48,113 nucleotides of DNA from Trueperaceae bacterium (lineage in GTDB: Bacteria; Deinococcota; Deinococci; Deinococcales; Trueperaceae): contig JACFNR010000018.1 of NCBI GenBank assembly GCA_019454765.1, positions 1 through 48,113 of the forward strand, read 5' to 3'. The position numbers were made by a program, and so were the translations under genes. Shown here one piece after another: positions 14,434-28,663 of the stretch (the stretch's first letter is position 1; the number at the start of each line of letters is the position of its first letter). Below the pieces are notes generated by a model. The model ran no database searches. It saw nothing but the letters and a program-made list of their open reading frames with translations, and was not told the DNA's origin.

Positions 14434-15222
14434 TCACGGCTCGGACACTAGCGCCCGCGCCCTCGCCTGCTCGAAGGCATCGGCAGCGGTGCGCACGGGC
14501 AACGCGAGCGCCATGTCAACCTGCTCCCGTGCCTCGGCATCTCGGCCGAGCCCGAACAACACGCGAGCGTACTCGACTCGCAAGTTGATCTGCAGCGGCG
14601 CGGCGGCAACCCCGCGCTCGATCATGGGTAGGACCTTGTCGCGCCTGGCACCGAACAGCCAACCGACGCCGAGCTCGGTGAGGGCGTAGTGCCAGGAGGC
14701 GTAGGAGACGAGGGCGTCGGCGTTGTCCGGATCGAGGTCCAGCGCGCGCTCGAACAGCTTCCTCACGTCTCCGGCCATCCGTGCTCTGGCGAGAGCTCCT
14801 TGGTGGAAACCAGCTTCGCCCTTGGCTCGCGCCAGGGCCATGGTGGCGGTCGCGGCCCACGGCCCGTTCGGCTCGAGCTCCAGGCTCCTCAGGGCCGCCG
14901 TTTGGGCGCGGTCGAGCCAGTCACGGGCGGCCGCGCTCTCGGTGGTGAGGTAGACGGCTTGATCGGTGGCCGCGCGCGACGCCAGCAACTGCGCCGTGGC
15001 CGTCTGGACGGGCACGGCCTCCTCGTAGGCTGCGGCGAAATCGCCCGCCAGCCACGCGGCGCCGCCTGGTACGCCTTGGTAGGGCACCGGCTGAGCCTGA
15101 CCCAGAGACACCGTGAAAACGAGAAGCAAGGCCACCGCGAAGCCGCGCACTACCGACGACGTGAGCGAGGGATGTGCGACTGACCGGTGTGACCTTGGGG
15201 GCTGCGGGAGTCCTGCCAGCAC
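14434..15222 (-). CDS. Exported TPR-like protein
   Basis: The mature part is built from helical repeats resembling TPRs (SLELEPNGPWAATATMALARA, ALDLDPDNADALVSYASWHY, RVEYARVLFGLGRDAEAREQ), so it probably scaffolds protein contacts in the periplasm or at the envelope. A signal peptide is seen at RGFAVALLLVFTVSLGQAQ. The open frame starts with GTG at 15222 (262 residues). A second GTG at 15150 puts the signal peptide at the very start and is a better-shaped N-terminus. Neither has a good ribosome site. Its partners are unknown. Confidence 0.65.
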   Translation of the reverse strand: MLAGLPQPPRSHRSVAHPSLTSSVVRGFAVALLLVFTVSLGQAQPVPYQGVPGGAAWLAGDFAAAYEEAVPVQTATAQLLASRAATDQAVYLTTESAAARDWLDRAQTAALRSLELEPNGPWAATATMALARAKGEAGFHQGALARARMAGDVRKLFERALDLDPDNADALVSYASWHYALTELGVGWLFGARRDKVLPMIERGVAAAPLQINLRVEYARVLFGLGRDAEAREQVDMALALPVRTAADAFEQARARALVSEP

Positions 15223-18070: not shown

Positions 18071-18451
18071 ATGCGCGAACTCCACGACCGCCTGATCGTC
18101 AGCGCGGGTCAGGCCGGGCTCGCCACCAGCCACGTTCTGGCCCACCGCGGCGTGCCTCACGGGGTGCTCGAGAAGGTGCGAGTGGGGCAGGCGTGGCGGG
18201 GGAGACGGGCGAGCTTCTGCCCGGTGACGCCGAACTGGACGATGCGTCTTCCGGAGCGGCCGCATGACGGCGAGGATCCCAGGGCCTTCTGCTCGCGTGT
18301 CGAGATCGTGGGCTTCCCCGAGCGCTACGCCCATGCCAGCCGAACCCCGCCCCGCGAGGGCGTCAAAGCTCCATGGCGCCCACGTTCACCCGTTGGGGCA
18401 CTCCGCCGTGGCGGCGGGCCGCCGCGCCCGCTTCCTCGCCGTCGAGCGTGA
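18071..18451 (+). pseudogene. N-terminal relic of a CzcO-like flavin monooxygenase
   Basis: From ATG 18071 the frame reads LIVSAGQAGLATSHVLAHRG, then VLEKVRVGQAWRGRRASFCP, VTPNWTMRLPE and FPERYAHASRTPPREGV. This follows the first 110 residues of the FAD/NAD(P)-binding putative flavoprotein monooxygenase family, where an intact protein reads GAGQAGL, LEKxRVGxxWRxRWDSF, VTPNW and so on to about 400 residues. The first Gly of the nucleotide-binding motif is Ser, and the frame degenerates after about residue 110. No remaining C-terminal part is visible. This relic and the tandem repeat are all I can see in 17900-18541. Confidence 0.65.
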
Positions 18452-18541: not shown

Positions 18542-18955
18542 CTATGACTCACTTGACGGCGCCACGTAGGAACGCTCGACGTCCGTGTGGACGAAGTCCG
18601 ACCCGACGAAGAGCAGCGGCTCCGAGGCCGCTACCGCCAGCGCGTACGAGAAGCAGTCGCCGAGGTTCAGCTGGGCGGGGTGTCCGCTCCCTTTGCCGAA
18701 GTCGGCGTAGGCACGGCTTGCGATGTTCGCCTGTTCCTCATCGAAAGGCACGATCTGGACGTTCCAGACTTGTAGCAATCGGCCCACTAGTCGGACTTTC
18801 TCGGGCGGCAATCGGCGCGTGAGCACGGCGTTGAGCTCCACCGCCGTGGCCGCCGACAGCTTCGGTGCCCCGTTGGCGACGATCAACTCCACTAACCGTT
18901 GCGCATCCGGCTCATCGCTGATCACGGCGAGGATGGCCGACGTGTCGAGGATCAT
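18542..18955 (-). CDS. vapC: PIN-domain toxin, VapC type
   Basis: The 137-residue protein is a PIN-domain ribonuclease toxin. Acidic residues of the metal site are visible: Asp in MILDTSAILAV at residue 4, Glu in TAVELNAVL near residue 40, Asp in LNLGDCFSYALA near residue 99, and Asp in LLFVGSDFVHTD near residue 119. VapC toxins usually cut tRNA or rRNA. The ATG at 18955 overlaps the TGA of the antitoxin gene as ATGA, so the two are made together from the promoter before vapB. All key residues are intact, in contrast to the decayed genes around it. Confidence 0.92.
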   Translation of the reverse strand: MILDTSAILAVISDEPDAQRLVELIVANGAPKLSAATAVELNAVLTRRLPPEKVRLVGRLLQVWNVQIVPFDEEQANIASRAYADFGKGSGHPAQLNLGDCFSYALAVAASEPLLFVGSDFVHTDVERSYVAPSSES

Positions 18956-19230
18956 GCGGGCAGGCCGGACTCGTCGTAGAGCTCGGACTCGGTGGTGCGC
19001 AGAGCATGCCGCTCGCTAGCGGTCAAGTTGGCGCGGATCCGTTCGATCAGACGTTCTGAGCTCTTGACTCGGTCCTCCAGGGAGCCGGACTCGTTCGAGT
19101 CGCCCGCGTCCAGTGCCGCCAGTCGTTCGCGCACCGCCACTTCCACGGCCTCGGTCTGAGACGTCCCCGTGCGCTCGGCGAGCTCGCGCACCAGGGCGGT
19201 CGTCCGTGGGTTCTTGATGTTCAGACTCAT
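18952..19230 (-). CDS. vapB: Antitoxin, VapB type (Rv0623-like)
   Basis: The 92-residue protein begins MSLNIKNPRTTALVRELAER followed by TGTSQTEAVEVAVRERL. This is the ribbon-helix-helix DNA-binding half of the Rv0623/PSK-type VapB antitoxins. The C-terminal part (RTTESELYDESGLPA) is the tail that normally wraps the VapC active site. It precedes vapC with a 4-base overlap. The ATG at 19230 lies 6 bases after TAGACT, and a palindrome covers that box, so self-repression with VapC is expected. Confidence 0.9.
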   Translation of the reverse strand: MSLNIKNPRTTALVRELAERTGTSQTEAVEVAVRERLAALDAGDSNESGSLEDRVKSSERLIERIRANLTASERHALRTTESELYDESGLPA

Positions 19231-19686: not shown

Positions 19687-19714
19687 AAACCTGATAACTC
19701 GTCTTATCCGACTA
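19687..19714 (+). other. Candidate dif site (Xer recombination site)
   Basis: A 28-bp sequence in an AT-rich island has the 11-6-11 layout of dif. The left arm is AAACCTGATAA, the centre CTCGTC and the right arm TTATCCGACTA. The inner bases form the inverted repeat GATAA / TTATC, as in known dif sites (ATAA, six bases, TTAT). The arms match each other at 7 of 11 positions, the imperfect symmetry usual for dif. It lies 15 bases before the recombinase ATG and next to its promoter. Single-recombinase systems (XerS/difSL, XerH/difH) also place the site beside the gene. Confidence 0.5.
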
Positions 19715-19717
19715 AGC

Positions 19718-19723
19718 TAAGCT
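19718..19723 (+). promoter_or_regulatory. -10 box for a leaderless start (recombinase)
   Basis: TAAGCT occurs twice, overlapping by one base (19713-19718 and 19718-19723). The second ends 6 bases before the ATG at 19730. The first overlaps the right arm of the candidate dif site, so recombinase binding could repress its own gene. Confidence 0.5.
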
Positions 19724-19729
19724 ACCCCG

Positions 19730-20794
19730 ATGGACCACGCGCTCGACCTCTACAAGGACCGCGGCGCCCTCGCCCGCGCCGAGGCGTGGGCGCAGCTGCC
19801 GCCCGAGGAGCTCCGTCGCCGCGCGGCGGCGGCCGCCCGCGACCGCGACGCGGAGCAGCTCTGGGCGCTCACCGAAGCGTACCTGTTCCTGCACGGCTCG
19901 CGCGGTGCCAAGGTCAGTCTGCACACGCTGCGGACGTACCGCCGCGGCGTCCGCGACCTGGTCGAGGCGTGGGCGTCGGAGAACCTGCTCCGGCCTAGCC
20001 GCGACGCCGGCGTCGTCTACATGAGGCGCCTCGAGGCCGGGAACGGCAGCGCTCCCGCGGAGGTCCCGCGGCGCGGCAGGGCGACCGCTGCGCGAGAGGT
20101 GCCCGCGTCGCCCGGGAGGCCGCTGAGCGCCGCGTCCCTGCAGGTGAAGCTGGCCGCGGCCCGCACGCTCTACAAGGCGCTGCGCTGGGCGGGCGCTTCC
20201 GACGCCAGGCCGTTCGACGACGTGCGTGTAGCCAAGGACCCCACGCCGCCGTGGGAGAAGCGGCGCCCGTACGCTGACCACGAGGTCGAGGCCCTCCTCG
20301 CGCTGGCGAGCGGCGCGGAGAAGGTCATGGTGCTGCTCGGCGCGCACGCGGGGCTCCGGATCGGCGAGATGGCGTCCCTCCGCTGGGACGACCTCGACCT
20401 GGAGCGCGGCAAGCTCCGCGTGCGCTCCGGCAAGGGCGGCAAGGCGGCCACGGTCAGCGTCACGCGAAGGCTCCGCGACGCCCTCGCCGAGCTGCGGCTC
20501 GTGAGCGCCGGCGGGGGTCGCGAGGCGCACCGGCAGCGCGACGCCGCCCTCGTCCTCCCGTGGGCCGCCGACCACGCGCGTAGGCGGTTCCGGCGGCTCT
20601 GCGCACTTGCCGGCGTCGAGTACCAGAACGCCGGCGTGCACGGGCTCCGCCACGGCGCCGGCACGCGCTACTACCGGCAGACCGGCGACCTCGGCCGCGT
20701 GGCCGCGCACCTGCGGCACGCCGACATCCAGACGACCCGCATCTACGCCAAGATCGGCGCGGCCGAGATCGGCGACGACATCGAGGACTGGTGA
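19730..20794 (+). CDS. Tyrosine recombinase, Xer type
   Basis: The 354-residue protein has the full catalytic set of tyrosine recombinases. Arg lies in GAHAGLRIGEMASLRWDDLD near residue 210, Lys in the beta-hairpin SGKGGKAATV near residue 240, HGLRH near residue 305, the second His in LRHADIQTTRIY, and the nucleophile Tyr in RIYAKIG near residue 340. Residues 1-170 form an alpha-helical core-binding domain with a Pro/Ala/Arg-rich insertion near residue 110. The length is nearer the single-recombinase XerS and XerH proteins (about 355) than XerC/XerD (about 300). A dif-like site lies directly upstream. A phage or island integrase is the alternative, but no other phage gene is present. Confidence 0.85.
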   Translation: MDHALDLYKDRGALARAEAWAQLPPEELRRRAAAAARDRDAEQLWALTEAYLFLHGSRGAKVSLHTLRTYRRGVRDLVEAWASENLLRPSRDAGVVYMRRLEAGNGSAPAEVPRRGRATAAREVPASPGRPLSAASLQVKLAAARTLYKALRWAGASDARPFDDVRVAKDPTPPWEKRRPYADHEVEALLALASGAEKVMVLLGAHAGLRIGEMASLRWDDLDLERGKLRVRSGKGGKAATVSVTRRLRDALAELRLVSAGGGREAHRQRDAALVLPWAADHARRRFRRLCALAGVEYQNAGVHGLRHGAGTRYYRQTGDLGRVAAHLRHADIQTTRIYAKIGAAEIGDDIEDW

Positions 20795-20835: not shown

Positions 20836-22224
20836 TCAACCTAGGCTGCGGCGCGTCATCTGGCCCCACTTGCCACGGCTGCTCCCGATCCTGAACATGG
20901 CCACGACGCGCACGACCGCCAACCACTGCCTGTACCCGAGGTTCTCCGTGATCACGGCGATGAACATCCGGTAGCGATCGCCCAGGCGCCGCGGCGAGTG
21001 CGGTAGCGCCTGATCCAGCGCGGCGCTCGTCAGACCCACGAGCATGCCGTAGAGCACGGAGAGTCCGAGGAAGGCCGCCACGAACGGGGCGTCGAGGTTG
21101 CCGGTGAGCCACAACACCAAGATCGTCAGGTAGCCCGTCACCTCCAGGATCGGCGAGACGCCCTCCACGAACCAGGCGTAAGGCAGGGCCACCAGCCCGA
21201 TGCGGCCGTAACGCGGGTTCAGGAGCATGTCGCGGTGCACCCACAAGGTCTCCCACAACCCGCGGTGCCACCTGTCGCGCTGACTCCTCAACACCTTCGC
21301 TTCGTCCGGGACCTGCGTCCAGCACACGGGGTCGATCATGAACTCGAGGCGGTGCTCCAGTCGGGCGTCACGGAAGTGACGGTGAAGCCGAACCGTCAAC
21401 TCGAAGTCCTCCCCCACCGTGTCCACCCTGAGGCCGCCAACCGCCAGGAGCGCGCTGCGGCGGAAGAGGCCGAAGGCGCCCGAGATGGAGATGAGGCACC
21501 CCACCTGGCTCATCGCCGCCCGAGCCGCGATGAACGCGCGCAGGTACTCGAGTTGCTGCCATCGGGCGATGAAGTTGCGTGGCGTCCGCGGCTCCTTCAC
21601 CGCACCACCCACGACCTTCGCCTCGTTCACGACGCGGATGGTGCCGCCCATCCCCATCAGGCTCGGTACGTCGAGGAAGCGCGTGCCCGCCTTCTGCAGG
21701 GCGGCGGGATCGATGAGGCTGTCCGCGTCGGTCAGCACCACCACCGGGTACCGCGCCTGCTCCAGGGCGGCGTTGAGGGCGTCCGCCCTGCCGCCGTTCT
21801 CCTTGTCCAGGACGAGTAGGCCCGCGTGGGTCGTGCTGCGCCAGGCGGAGCGCACCGGCGCGTGTTGCGTGAACCTGCGGGGGCCCGGGAGGCTCTCGAC
21901 GAGGTCGAACGCCTCCTTCAGCACCGTCAAGGTCGCGTCCTTGGAGCCGTCGTTCGCCACGATCACCTCGAACTCGGGGTAGTGCATGGCGAGCAGGCTC
22001 TCGAGGCTGCTCACGATCGTGGCCTCCTCGTTGTAGGCGGGGATGAGGAAGCTGACGGGCAGGTAGGTCGAGGCCCGCGTCAGCAGCGTCTGCTCCAGAG
22101 CCGACAGGCGCCGCCCGCGCATCAACACCGCCCTGGACGCCAGCGCCAACGCGGCCGCGTTGCTGCCGTTGATGACGAGGAAGGCCACGAGGACGAAGGC
22201 CTGCAGGCCGTCGACGACGCTCAA
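20836..22224 (-). CDS. Family 2 glycosyltransferase, membrane-bound (polysaccharide synthase-like)
   Basis: The 462-residue enzyme has the processive GT2 signature: FLIPAYNEEATIV near residue 55, NDGSKDAT near residue 90, the DxD-type TDADS near residue 150, SGAFGLFRR near residue 225, GEDFELT near residue 248 and QRDRWHRGL near residue 296 (the Q..RW motif). An N-terminal membrane segment and three or four C-terminal ones frame the catalytic domain. Such enzymes extend cellulose, poly-N-acetylglucosamine or hyaluronan-like chains from UDP-sugars; the sugar is not predictable here. The start is TTG at 22224, overlapping the stop of the HEAT gene as TTGA. It is the last gene of the response regulator-HEAT-GT2 operon. 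Confidence 0.88.
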   Translation of the reverse strand: MSVVDGLQAFVLVAFLVINGSNAAALALASRAVLMRGRRLSALEQTLLTRASTYLPVSFLIPAYNEEATIVSSLESLLAMHYPEFEVIVANDGSKDATLTVLKEAFDLVESLPGPRRFTQHAPVRSAWRSTTHAGLLVLDKENGGRADALNAALEQARYPVVVLTDADSLIDPAALQKAGTRFLDVPSLMGMGGTIRVVNEAKVVGGAVKEPRTPRNFIARWQQLEYLRAFIAARAAMSQVGCLISISGAFGLFRRSALLAVGGLRVDTVGEDFELTVRLHRHFRDARLEHRLEFMIDPVCWTQVPDEAKVLRSQRDRWHRGLWETLWVHRDMLLNPRYGRIGLVALPYAWFVEGVSPILEVTGYLTILVLWLTGNLDAPFVAAFLGLSVLYGMLVGLTSAALDQALPHSPRRLGDRYRMFIAVITENLGYRQWLAVVRVVAMFRIGSSRGKWGQMTRRSLG

Positions 22225-24449: not shown

Positions 24450-25274
24450 CTAGCCGACGGCCTCGACGGCCACCACGGTCCCCGCGCACACCGCGATCGG
24501 CGCTTCCGACGTCGCGGACGACAACAGCAGGCAGCCGCGCTCGTCGATGCCCCGAGCCACGCCGCTCACGCGCCACCCCTCGCCGGCGCCGGCCGCGGAG
24601 CCGGGCACGGGCGCGGCGGTGCCGACCGCCTCCGCGTCGCCCACCGTGACGCGCTTGCCGGCCAACCAGTCGAGGGCCGCGTAGCGCCGCCTCAGAGCGG
24701 CGGGGACCGGGACGGCGCCCTCGTCGCTCACCGCCGCGGCCAGCGCGCCGCCGACCGCCTCCAAGACCAGCTCCTCGACGGCCGGCAGCGACCAGGACCG
24801 CAAGGCGGTGGCGGTGGGAGGCACGTCGTTCTCGACGTTGATCCCCACGCCCAGGAGGAGGTGCTCCCTCACACGCTCGACCAGGACGCCGCCGAGTTTC
24901 CTGTCGCGGTAGTAGAGGTCGTTCGGCCACTTGACCTTGCACCTCGCCCCGGCCGCACCGAGCGCTTCTGCGAGCGCCACCCCGACCGCCAGCGTCAGGC
25001 CGGCCCCGCCCGCCGGGAGGCGCGCCGCCGGCGTCACGAACGTCTGATAGCTTCCGCCGTCGCCGCTGCGCCAGCTTCCACCGCGACGACCACGCCCCGC
25101 CGACTGCGACCGCGCCCGCACCACCGTGCCGGCCGCATCCACGCCGCTAGCCAGCATGCGCTTAGCCACCTCCTGCGTCGAGTCGACGTCGCCGAGCAGC
25201 ACGACGCGCCAAGCCGGCGGAGCCGCCGGCGACTGCGCAGCCAATCCGGCCGGACCGTCGCTCTCCGTCGTCAC
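24450..25274 (-). CDS. birA: Biotin-[acetyl-CoA-carboxylase] ligase
   Basis: The 274-residue enzyme should attach biotin to carboxylase carrier proteins through biotinyl-AMP. Visible motifs are DSTQEVAKRM near residue 31, SAGRGRRGGSWRSGDGG near residue 58 (the biotin/ATP loop, GRGRxGR-like), KWPNDLYYRDRKLGGVLVE near residue 115, and GVGINVEND near residue 142. There is no N-terminal helix-turn-helix, so it is the non-repressor (group I) type. The GTG start at 25274 overlaps the smc stop as GTGA. The longer open frame upstream of this GTG is a shadow of smc. Confidence 0.9.
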   Translation of the reverse strand: MTTESDGPAGLAAQSPAAPPAWRVVLLGDVDSTQEVAKRMLASGVDAAGTVVRARSQSAGRGRRGGSWRSGDGGSYQTFVTPAARLPAGGAGLTLAVGVALAEALGAAGARCKVKWPNDLYYRDRKLGGVLVERVREHLLLGVGINVENDVPPTATALRSWSLPAVEELVLEAVGGALAAAVSDEGAVPVPAALRRRYAALDWLAGKRVTVGDAEAVGTAAPVPGSAAGAGEGWRVSGVARGIDERGCLLLSSATSEAPIAVCAGTVVAVEAVG

Positions 25275-28200
25275 GCGGGCAACTCCGCCTCCTTGCGGAT
25301 GCTGAAGACGCGGCTGACGCCCTGCTCGGTCGTGATGCCCCACAGGGTCTCGGCGATCTCGAAGGTCGCCTTCTGGTGGGTGATGAGCACGAACTGGGTC
25401 CCCTGCGCGGCGAGGCGCGCCACGAACTGGCCGTAGCGGCGGATGTTGGCCTCATCGAGAGGGGCGTCGACCTCGTCGAGGACCGCCACCGGCAACCCGC
25501 CACCCTCGTCGGCGATCAGCGAGAACAGGAACGCGAGCGCGCCCATGGTGCGCTCCCCGACCGACAGCAGGTGGAGCGAGTGCGTCTGCTTGCCGGGAGG
25601 CTGCAGCCGGATCCGCACGCCCACGGGTCGGCTGCCCTCGGCGTCCACCTCGATGGCGCCTCGCGCATCCGGGCCGAAGAGCTGCTTGACGTGACGCGAG
25701 AACGCCGTCTGCAGGCGCTCGAGCGCCGCGTTCAGCCGCGCGCTCGTCTCCTTGTCGATCCGGTCGAGCGTCGACTCGAGCTCGGCGACGGCCAGCGTGG
25801 CCTGCACCGCCTCCACCTCGAGGTTCTCCTTGCGCTCCGTCACCTCGGCCAGGTCGATGGCGGCGCGGTGGTTGACGGCCCCGAGCGCATCGAGCTCGTC
25901 GGTGACCTCGCGCAGCCGGGCGCGACCGGCGCGCTCGGTGATGTCCAGCGCTTCGATCCCGGCAGGGAACGCCCGCAGCTCCTCCTGCGCCAGCTCCAAC
26001 GCGGCGTCGCGCCTCGCCGCCTGGAGCCTCACGTCCTCAAGCTCCTGCGCGCGCGTCGCCTGCGCCGCAGTCTCCGCCGTCAACTGCTCCTCGAAGGCAG
26101 CCAGCGCCGCGCGCGCCGCGGCCACCTCTCCCTCTTCGGTCGCCAGGTCGGCGGGAACGGCCGCCTGGGCGGCGTCCCTCTCGGTTTCCGCCGCCGCCAG
26201 CTCGACCGCCTGCTCGGCGGCGGCCCGAGCGAGCTCCTCGTGTTCGGCCGCCAGCTGGACGGCGCGCGCGGCGCCCGCCTCGTAACGCGAGAGCGCCTCC
26301 TCGTGCTGGCGCCACCGTTCCCGCGCCAGAGCCGCCGCCTGCTCGGCCCGGGCGGCCTCGCCGCGCGCCTCGGCGAGCGCCGTTCGCGCCGCGTCGAGCG
26401 CGGCGACTGCCCCGTCGAGGTCCGCCTCGGCGGTCGCGACGGCGGCAACGAGGTCGGTAGCGGCTGCGTGCGGCACTTCCGGCAGGGCGGCGGACTCCGC
26501 CGCGAGCCGTTCCCGCCGCGAACGCAGGTCGATGAGGAGGCGCTCCCGCCCCGCGCCGCGCTCGCGCGCCTCGGCCAGCGCCAGCGCCGCACCCCGGTTC
26601 GCCTCCGCCGCCGTGCGCACTGCCTCGAGCAGCTCGCGCATCACCGCCTGCTCGGCGTTGAGTTGGCGCTGCGCCTCCTGCGCAGCGTCGGAGCTGCTCC
26701 GCGCCGCCGCCTCGGCCTCCTCGAGGTCGGCGGCGGCCCCCAGCACCGTGGCGTGCTGCGAGCGCTTGCCGCCGCTCATGGCGCCGCTGGGCTCGACCAC
26801 GTCGCCCTGCAGGGTGACCAGCCGCGGGCGCGCCCCGGGGCGCCGGGCGATCGCGGTGGCGGCATCGATGTCGGTGACCACGAGCGTGCCACTCAGGAGG
26901 TTGTCGAACAGCGTGGCGTACTCCCCGTCCACCTCGATCAGCGCCGTGGCGGGGGCGATGACGCCGGGGTGGGAGGCGCCGGGCCGGCCCCGCTCGCCCT
27001 GCGGCCTCAGGAGGTCCAGCGGGAGGACGGTCACGAAGCCGCCCGAGCGCCGCACGTGTTCCAGCACCTTCTTGCCCGCCTCGGCGGTCGCTACCACCAC
27101 ATACTCGGCGCGCCGACCGAGCGCCCCCGCGATGGCCTCTTGGTACTCGGGCGCCACCTTCACCAGGTCGGCGACGGCGCCGATCACGCCTTCGATGCCA
27201 GAGGCGAGCGCGTTGCGGGGCCCCTGCGCGAAGCCGCGCCTGGCCTCGAAGGCCGCGCGGCTGCGCGCGGCGGCGGCCCCGCGCGAGACCGCCTCGGCCG
27301 CGGCCAACGCGTGGCGTTCGTGCGCGCGCTGCAGCGCCGCGCGCTGGGCTTCGGCCTCCCCCTCCGCCCGTGCGAGGTCCGCGGCGGCGGCGGCCTGGCG
27401 CGCGCCGAGCGCTTCCAGGTCGGCGCCGCTCGTGTCGGCCTCCATGGCCGCCACCTGGGCGTCCACCTGGGTGAGTTGCGCCCGGAGCGCCTCGCGGCGC
27501 GACTCGAGTGCCGCCCCTTCGCGCTCTACAGTGGCGTGATCGCGCCTCAACCGCTCGAACGCCTCGCGCGCCGCGCGTTCACGATCGGCCGCCGCGGTCA
27601 ACGCGGCCTCGCGGTCGGCCGCGCCAAGCGCCGCGGCGGCCGCACGTTCGGCCGCCGCCTGCGGCGCCTCGTCGGGCGGGGTTGGCCTCGCGGCCTGGGC
27701 GAGCCTGTCGCGCTCCGTGCTCACCGCGCGGGCGCGGGCGGCGAGCGCGTCGGCCCGCTCCGTCAGCCGCTCCAGGCGTTCCTGCGCCAGCCTGAGGTTG
27801 CCGCGGCGGTACTCGAGCCGCGCGGCAGCCTCCCTGTAACGCTCCTCCGCCCCGTCGCGGTCGGTGGCGAGCCGCCTGCCGCCCTCGCGGAGGTCGAGCA
27901 GCCGCTGCCGACCGTCGGCGAGGGCGGCCTCGAGCAGCCCGCGCCGGCCGTCCAGCTCGGCGATCTCGGTAGCCAGGCCCGCTTCGCGCAGGCGCGCGAG
28001 GGTGAACCGCAGGCGCAGTTGCAGGGCGCTCAGCTCGGCGTGGCGCTTGGCGCCGGCCGCCTCGCCCTCCAGCGACCGGCAGCGGGCCGCCAGCTCCGCG
28101 AGCACGTCCTGCAGCCGAGCCAGGTGCTGTCCCGCCGTCTCGAGCCGCGCCACGGTCTGGTCGCGCCTGCCGGCGAGCCGGGCCACGCCGGCCGCCTCGG

Positions 28201-28663
28201 CGACGTGCTCGAGGAGCTTGGCGGGGTCGGCCATCAGCACCTGGCTCACCTCGCCCTGCCCGATGATCGCCAGGCCCGACCGGCCGAGTCCCGTTCCAGC
28301 CAAGGCCTCCTCCACGTCCAGGAAGCGTGCGCTGCGCCCGTTGAGGCGTAGGCGCGTGGTGCCGTCACGGTCGATGCTGCGGTAGACCTTCACGCCGGCC
28401 CCGCCGTGCTTGAGCTCGAGCTCCACCTCGGCGAGGCCGACCGAGCGCTTTCCGCTCGCGCCGTGGAAGATGAGGTCCGTCTTGTCGGTGGCGCGGAACT
28501 CGCGCGCCCGGCCGCCGCCTGTCGTCCAGCGCAGCGCGTCGAGCACGTTCGACTTGCCCGACCCGTTCGGGCCGATGATGGCGGTGACGCCGGGGGCGAA
28601 CTCGAGGGTGGCGCGGTTGCCGAAGCTCTTGAAGCCCTGCAGCGTCAGCGAAGCTAGTCGCAC
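25271..28663 (-). CDS. smc: Chromosome segregation ATPase SMC
   Basis: The 1130-residue protein has the SMC plan. Walker A GPNGSGKSN is at residues 31-39, followed by a long coiled coil, a hinge around residues 490-620 (GVIGAVADLVKVAPEYQEAI), a second coiled coil, the signature LLSVGERTMGALAF near residue 1035, and Walker B VLDEVDAPLDEANIRR near 1060. The signature has Val where most SMCs have Gly (LSGGE); Deinococcus-type SMCs are also known to vary here. It loads with ScpA/ScpB to fold and separate the chromosome. The GTG at 28663 lies 13 bases after hspR. No ScpA/B genes are in the window. Confidence 0.95.
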   Translation of the reverse strand: MRLASLTLQGFKSFGNRATLEFAPGVTAIIGPNGSGKSNVLDALRWTTGGGRAREFRATDKTDLIFHGASGKRSVGLAEVELELKHGGAGVKVYRSIDRDGTTRLRLNGRSARFLDVEEALAGTGLGRSGLAIIGQGEVSQVLMADPAKLLEHVAEAAGVARLAGRRDQTVARLETAGQHLARLQDVLAELAARCRSLEGEAAGAKRHAELSALQLRLRFTLARLREAGLATEIAELDGRRGLLEAALADGRQRLLDLREGGRRLATDRDGAEERYREAAARLEYRRGNLRLAQERLERLTERADALAARARAVSTERDRLAQAARPTPPDEAPQAAAERAAAAALGAADREAALTAAADRERAAREAFERLRRDHATVEREGAALESRREALRAQLTQVDAQVAAMEADTSGADLEALGARQAAAAADLARAEGEAEAQRAALQRAHERHALAAAEAVSRGAAAARSRAAFEARRGFAQGPRNALASGIEGVIGAVADLVKVAPEYQEAIAGALGRRAEYVVVATAEAGKKVLEHVRRSGGFVTVLPLDLLRPQGERGRPGASHPGVIAPATALIEVDGEYATLFDNLLSGTLVVTDIDAATAIARRPGARPRLVTLQGDVVEPSGAMSGGKRSQHATVLGAAADLEEAEAAARSSSDAAQEAQRQLNAEQAVMRELLEAVRTAAEANRGAALALAEARERGAGRERLLIDLRSRRERLAAESAALPEVPHAAATDLVAAVATAEADLDGAVAALDAARTALAEARGEAARAEQAAALARERWRQHEEALSRYEAGAARAVQLAAEHEELARAAAEQAVELAAAETERDAAQAAVPADLATEEGEVAAARAALAAFEEQLTAETAAQATRAQELEDVRLQAARRDAALELAQEELRAFPAGIEALDITERAGRARLREVTDELDALGAVNHRAAIDLAEVTERKENLEVEAVQATLAVAELESTLDRIDKETSARLNAALERLQTAFSRHVKQLFGPDARGAIEVDAEGSRPVGVRIRLQPPGKQTHSLHLLSVGERTMGALAFLFSLIADEGGGLPVAVLDEVDAPLDEANIRRYGQFVARLAAQGTQFVLITHQKATFEIAETLWGITTEQGVSRVFSIRKEAELPA

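Follow-up and report, generated by a model that had tools for sequence, protein, structure and literature searches.

The Xer/dif machinery separates chromosome copies that have been accidentally joined before the cell divides. Forms of it with a single recombinase and an adjacent site are already known. In streptococci and lactococci, one recombinase of ~356 aa, XerS, is encoded immediately beside the terminus site difSL, which is 31 bp long with an 11-bp centre (PMC5357621). XerH of Helicobacter and Campylobacter is also single, has 354–362 aa, and has difH near its gene (PMC5357621). In the Legionellales, XerL is a divergent single recombinase that was missed by homology searches, and in Coxiella a plasmid-borne XerL copy has an adjacent site (PMC9765430). 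Archaeal XerA has been reported to be independent of FtsK (PMC5357621). Kono et al., surveying dif sites, mention neither Deinococcus nor Thermus (PMC3025954), and in D. radiodurans a canonical dif or KOPS pattern was not confidently identifiable, according to PMC13342612. No earlier identification of a dif in the Deinococcota was found in the open-access literature, a description in a subscription journal being possible.

The window, the whole 48,113-nucleotide stretch of DNA that was analysed, is an entire contig (C18) from the 2.91-Mb draft genome (G000) of a Trueperaceae bacterium. It contains the 28-mer AAACCTGATAA-CTCGTC-TTATCCGACTA, a candidate dif with an 11-6-11 layout, called difA here (Table 1). 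The original prediction put this site, with its inner GATAA/TTATC symmetry, 15 bases before the ATG of a 354-residue tyrosine recombinase (recombinase A, XerA-type here), and its coordinates and sequence were exact. The recombinase has a PF02899 (SAM-like) N domain in addition to PF00589, and its catalytic set is complete: R210, K235, H304, R307, H330 and Y339, as aligned with E. coli XerD and XerC. GATAA-N6-TTATC, with one mismatch allowed, has a single match in the 48 kb (mean of 0.03 in shuffled sequence), and ATAA-N6-TTAT has two in the whole genome – difA and a site near a second recombinase. Sequence comparison makes it highly probable that difA is the dif of the main chromosome and that the adjacent gene encodes the one recombinase acting on it.

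Table 1. Features of the difA locus and copies of the word GGGGGAG in the window
Feature	Position	Strand	Basis
dif candidate difA, 28 bp	19687..19714	+	sequence, conservation in 8 orthologues, single copy, GC-skew maximum in relatives
difA left arm AAACCTGATAA	19687..19697	+	mean pairwise identity 0.88 over 8 orthologues; GATAA invariant
difA centre CTCGTC, putative crossover region	19698..19703	+	kept as nTnGyC in difA sites
difA right arm TTATCCGACTA (consensus TTATCAGACTT)	19704..19714	+	alignment of 8 orthologues
Putative -10 element TAAGCT, 6 nt before ATG, leaderless type	19718..19723	+	recurrence in orthologues
Tyrosine recombinase gene (XerA-type here), 354 aa	19730..20794	+	PF00589 E=3e-23; A clade 98/90
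birA, biotin-protein ligase	24450..25343	-	PF03099
smc, chromosome-segregation ATPase, 4.5 kb from recombinase	25271..28663	-	PF02463, PF06470
GGGGGAG left of site, site-directed	18198..18204; also 2713, 13451	+	word search
GGGGGAG right of site, site-directed	21409..21415; also 22584, 27356, 33396, 37926, 44144, 46266, 47699	-	word search
GGGGGAG, contrary copies	30706, 34392, 39982, 47454	+	word search

Like XerS/difSL, this locus has a single recombinase of similar length whose gene adjoins a site at the terminus; unlike difSL, the site is 28 bp long with a 6-bp centre, and the protein scored 45.5 bits against the XerS model NF003462, below the cut-off of 267. XerH/difH is similar in protein length, in its single recombinase and in the nearness of site and gene, but it comes from an unrelated phylum, its arms are different and the similarity is weak (PDB 5jjv, E=2.5e-6, catalytic part only). 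The likeness in length and adjacency to both systems, which was part of the original prediction, agrees with their published descriptions (PMC5357621). XerL, likened by description alone, is also a divergent single recombinase, with a plasmid-borne copy beside a site in Coxiella, but in another phylum. The E. coli XerC/XerD/dif system shares the 28-bp 11-6-11 layout, the inner ATAA-N6-TTAT, the terminus position, the FtsK gamma domain and polar words like KOPS; it differs in that the arms here are symmetric, one recombinase would probably suffice, and the protein has 354 rather than 298 aa. Scores against the XerC (TIGR02224, 68.2 bits) and XerD (TIGR02225, 45.9 bits) models were both far below the cut-offs, 335 and 330. 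Archaeal XerA works as one recombinase, as recombinase A probably would, and gave the best match among solved structures (PDB 5hxy, E=1.2e-11), but the score against NF040815 was 69.5 bits, below the cut-off of 220, and polar words and an FtsK gamma domain are present here. The locus appears to represent a new single-recombinase Xer/dif lineage that would work like XerS and XerH while belonging to neither, XerH having been compared through one PDB match.

The site was found directly upstream of the gene in eight Trueperaceae orthologues from five genera. As the original prediction required, the 28 bp are conserved among them. Pairs of sequences are on average identical at a fraction of 0.83 of the positions in the site, against 0.28–0.36 in the preceding 60 bp and 0.39–0.43 in the DNA that follows, so the flanks have diverged. 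The consensus is AARYCTGATAA-nTnGyC-TTATCAGACTT, in which GATAA and TTATC are invariant. The centres of the orthologue sites are CTCGTC, CTAGTC, CTAGCC or GTGGCC; as the centre is asymmetric, it could set the orientation of the site. In G001, a closed genome from this genus, the arms have 11/11 mirror symmetry. The difA pattern with up to three mismatches has one match per genome, always beside the recombinase gene (G000, G001, G003, G004, G005, G009 and G021). The exact 28-mer has no match among the contigs of the relatives, because these differ from it at 1–3 bases. ATAA-N6-TTAT alone gave hundreds of chance matches in the AT-richer members of the family and was uninformative there.

GC skew was tested in relatives, the window's own genome being a 93-contig draft. 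The site of G001 (2,919,400 bp) spans 1,309,818–1,309,845 and lies opposite dnaA (2,790,554), giving chromosome arms of ~1.48 and 1.44 Mb. The cumulative skew of a contiguous 458-kb stretch of this genome has its maximum at 1,308,859, 1.0 kb from the site; sparse samples of the remainder, one block excepted, agree with this, the skew being mainly positive to one side of the site and mainly negative to the other, though not in every sample. In two contigs of the same genus, G005:C2 and G004:C6, site and maximum are separated by 1.9 and 4.4 kb. The skew turns at the site, as predicted, and a switch elsewhere with another dif, named beforehand as evidence to the contrary, did not occur in these same-genus relatives. 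In G017 (3,260,398 bp, dnaA at 493), a homologue from a sister lineage is at 1,629,307, half-way round the chromosome, and the skew reaches its maximum 31 kb away from this gene. G021 was set aside as a third closed-genome test because it is a gapped scaffold; its skew is confused, and its A-type pair does not lie opposite dnaA.

One copy of the FtsK gamma domain is encoded in G000, and one each in 8 of the 9 relatives searched. In G001 and G017, all octamers were ranked by how consistently they point to the site. The top octamer common to both was GGGGGAGA, with 28/32 and 54/64 copies directed to the site. As this was a selected word, GGGGGAG was tested on contigs outside the selection, which are of the same genus as G001 and hence not wholly independent: 37/45 copies were site-directed in G005:C2 (p=1.5e-5) and 35/44 in G004:C6 (p=1.1e-4). 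In the window, 11 of the 15 copies are site-directed, which is not significant alone. The KOPS words of E. coli and other organisms (GGGAGGG, GAGAAGGG, GAAGAAG) had weak or absent polarity. GGGGGAG, which points strongly to the terminus in G001, G017, G004:C6 and G005:C2, is a KOPS candidate for the Trueperaceae.

The symmetry of difA suggests that each site would be bound by two recombinase protomers, on its mirror-image 11-bp arms. The two sites of a dimer would be brought together at the septum by FtsK as it moves along polarised words like GGGGGAG, and there the neighbouring recombinase would act as a homotetramer on the two delivered sites. By the chemistry of the family, Tyr339 would cleave at either border of the 6-bp centre; strand exchange would then yield monomers. 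Binding, recombination, dimer resolution and activation by FtsK are all predictions from sequence.

The idea of a single-recombinase locus holds for each site but not for the genome, since the search for a second xer gene and a second dif-like site found both. Recombinase B, 45% identical to A, is encoded at 14831–15823 of contig C21, and difB, CGATTTGATAA-GTCGTC-TTATCAAACAT, is at 18561–18588 of the same contig, 2.7 kb from the B gene. With both proteins in one genome, and with difA and difB sharing the inner GATAA-N6-TTATC and having similar centres, the site might be a heteromeric dif like that of XerC and XerD, A and B binding one arm each. The arms make this improbable – both difA arms are A-type (TCTGATAA), while both difB arms are B-type (TTTGATAA). 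The distribution of the recombinases also argues against it: in the closed genome G001 only A was found, with no B at close similarity, yet the site is perfectly symmetric; genera with B only retain a B-type site; and B or its site shares a contig with a second ParB in G019 (C54) and G020 (C65). In a tree with E. coli XerC and XerD, A and B form separate clades (support 98/90 and 100/99), which long branches part from the E. coli proteins, the deep order being unsure. The symmetric A-type arms and the presence of A without B in G001 both suggest that one recombinase would suffice at difA.

The linkage to a second ParB in relatives, seen also for a B-like fragment in G004 (C14), suggests that B serves a second replicon. 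G017 has one ParB. Contig C21 carries polA, ligA, polX and dinB, and two neighbours of B that were searched for in G001 were both missing. B probably serves a second, chromid-like replicon, which for G000 itself is a prediction. A third integrase in G000 (C31, 3–128) is a C-terminal fragment at a contig end and looks phage-like. In one B-only genus, g16, there are two sites with the same arm type and different centres (GTTGTC; TCTGCC or CCTGCC), at 53935 of C22 and 73744 of C65 in G020, and likewise in G033, G027, G030 and G036. One recombinase may serve two replicons in this genus, kept apart by the centre.

TAAGCT or TAAACT recurs between the site and the ATG in L005, L006, L007, L010 and L013. 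In the window there are two copies of TAAGCT, and the original prediction had the right arm overlapping this tandem promoter. The overlap is real for the first copy (19713–19718), by two bases only; the second copy starts four bases past the right arm, outside it, and is more likely to be the -10 element. Because site and promoter overlap, autorepression is plausible: recombinase on the site would lie over the -10 element of its gene, or right against it, and hinder RNA polymerase. In every close orthologue, site and promoter overlap or adjoin, which would also be expected if the 28-mer were purely an operator, bound by the recombinase or another protein to regulate the gene, with recombination taking place elsewhere. 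Little weight can be given to this reading, as an operator needs neither a position at the terminus, nor a conserved 6-bp centre, nor a single copy. There is also no further dif-like site in the genome besides difB, and the site of the B lineage is about 3 kb from its gene and so not tied to a promoter there.

It is very improbable that an integrated mobile element has its attachment module (an integrase and its att site) here: the PHROGs label is integrase, 39% identical homologues are found in the Thermus phages Lalka and homologues are common on Deinococcus plasmids, but these matches are distant (<60% identity), there are no phage or transfer genes in the ten neighbouring ORFs scanned and no tRNA within 12 kb, and the pair recurs at the chromosome terminus in five genera without duplicated flanks. 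The contig can be assigned to the main chromosome because it carries smc, birA, dnaJ, tRNA-Val and tRNA-Cys. With these genes nearby and the pair of site and gene recurring across genera, a strain-specific integrated element, the other contrary outcome considered at the outset, was not borne out.

The 3’ end of birA adjoins the recombinase in G019 and G021 as well (sequence read by eye). The title of a reference cited in PMC13342612 has XerD unloading SMC at dif in B. subtilis, and the linkage of smc to the recombinase is possibly of interest for that reason. On the other side of the site, a PIN-domain protein (18542–18955, minus strand) is a candidate VapC-like toxin. With a short ORF just upstream (18952–19230, minus strand), it likely forms a toxin-antitoxin pair adjoining the dif locus.

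The locus is not distinct to one genome, or even confined to the genus, as there are palindromic sites by homologues across the Deinococcota. A palindromic 11-6-11 site was found within 200 bp upstream of the homologue at 21 of 37 Deinococcota loci, where 0.56 were expected from random windows at the same loci; the 37 loci are related and not 37 independent events. The other 16 had no qualifying site within 200 bp by this fixed criterion (one, G009, was missed through the gene-end setting), so adjacency is common but not universal. The arms, however, are not the same from lineage to lineage, as they should be had a single sequence simply been inherited. Upstream sites in other Deinococcota families include ATTCCCGTTAA-GGGAAA-TTAACGGGAAT in G038 and ATTTCCCATAA-GTAAAA-TTATGCGAAAT in G047. 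In G046, the site of the chromosome is ATTCCCGTTAA-TAACCC-TTAACAGGAAT, with the gene at 50% of 2,303,940 bp, and that of a 135-kb replicon is ATGTCCACTAA-TACTTG-TTAGTGAACAT. The Deinococcus plasmid pDAETH-1 has CCCATAGATAA-GGTGTG-TTATCTATGGG, and further plasmids have others. On D. radiodurans MP1 (NC_000958.1; L230), TGCCGTGATAA-TTCAAG-TTATACCGCTG at 124339–124366 precedes the gene of a 42% identical recombinase by 31 bp and is the sole ATAA-N6-TTAT in 177,466 bp. It fails the symmetry criterion, its outer-arm symmetry being weak, and is a candidate dif for MP1.

The sister recombinase lineage is found in G017 (C1, 1629307–1630781; L014, L090) and in G021 (C1, about 3581430–3582878; L117), in the latter ~43 kb from the point opposite dnaA. 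Its proteins are extended at the N terminus by a stretch with a sigma/HTH-like motif, GVSRERVR, and the site upstream has inner arms ACCTAA/TTAGGT. The sole ATAA-N6-TTAT in G017, at 451,635, was rejected as its dif because it is 1.18 Mb from the terminus. A better candidate is CCCCCACCTAA-GGCTGA-TTAGGTGGGTA, 130 bp upstream of the long ORF, whose inner arms recur upstream of the related G021 recombinase. The Thermus phages Lalka8, Lalka27a and Lalka27b (PQ109075–PQ109077) encode a recombinase with 39% identity, which they may have borrowed to resolve phage-plasmid dimers or to integrate at a host dif.

The balance of these comparisons tips slightly towards replicon-specific Xer/dif modules in the Deinococcota. 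The chromosome and the large secondary replicons would each have their own recombinase and a differently armed cognate site. This site would lie at the terminus, within the promoter of the recombinase gene or close to it, and FtsK would deliver it by following words like GGGGGAG. In some genera, such as g16, two replicons may depend on one recombinase, their sites having shared arms but different centres, which would prevent exchange between the replicons. The Deinococcota mend shattered genomes through extensive homologous recombination and commonly carry several replicons, which should make dimers a real difficulty for them. A site, its enzyme and a candidate guide word for FtsK are now named and are directly testable, and concrete dif candidates follow for D. 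radiodurans MP1 and other Deinococcus plasmids.
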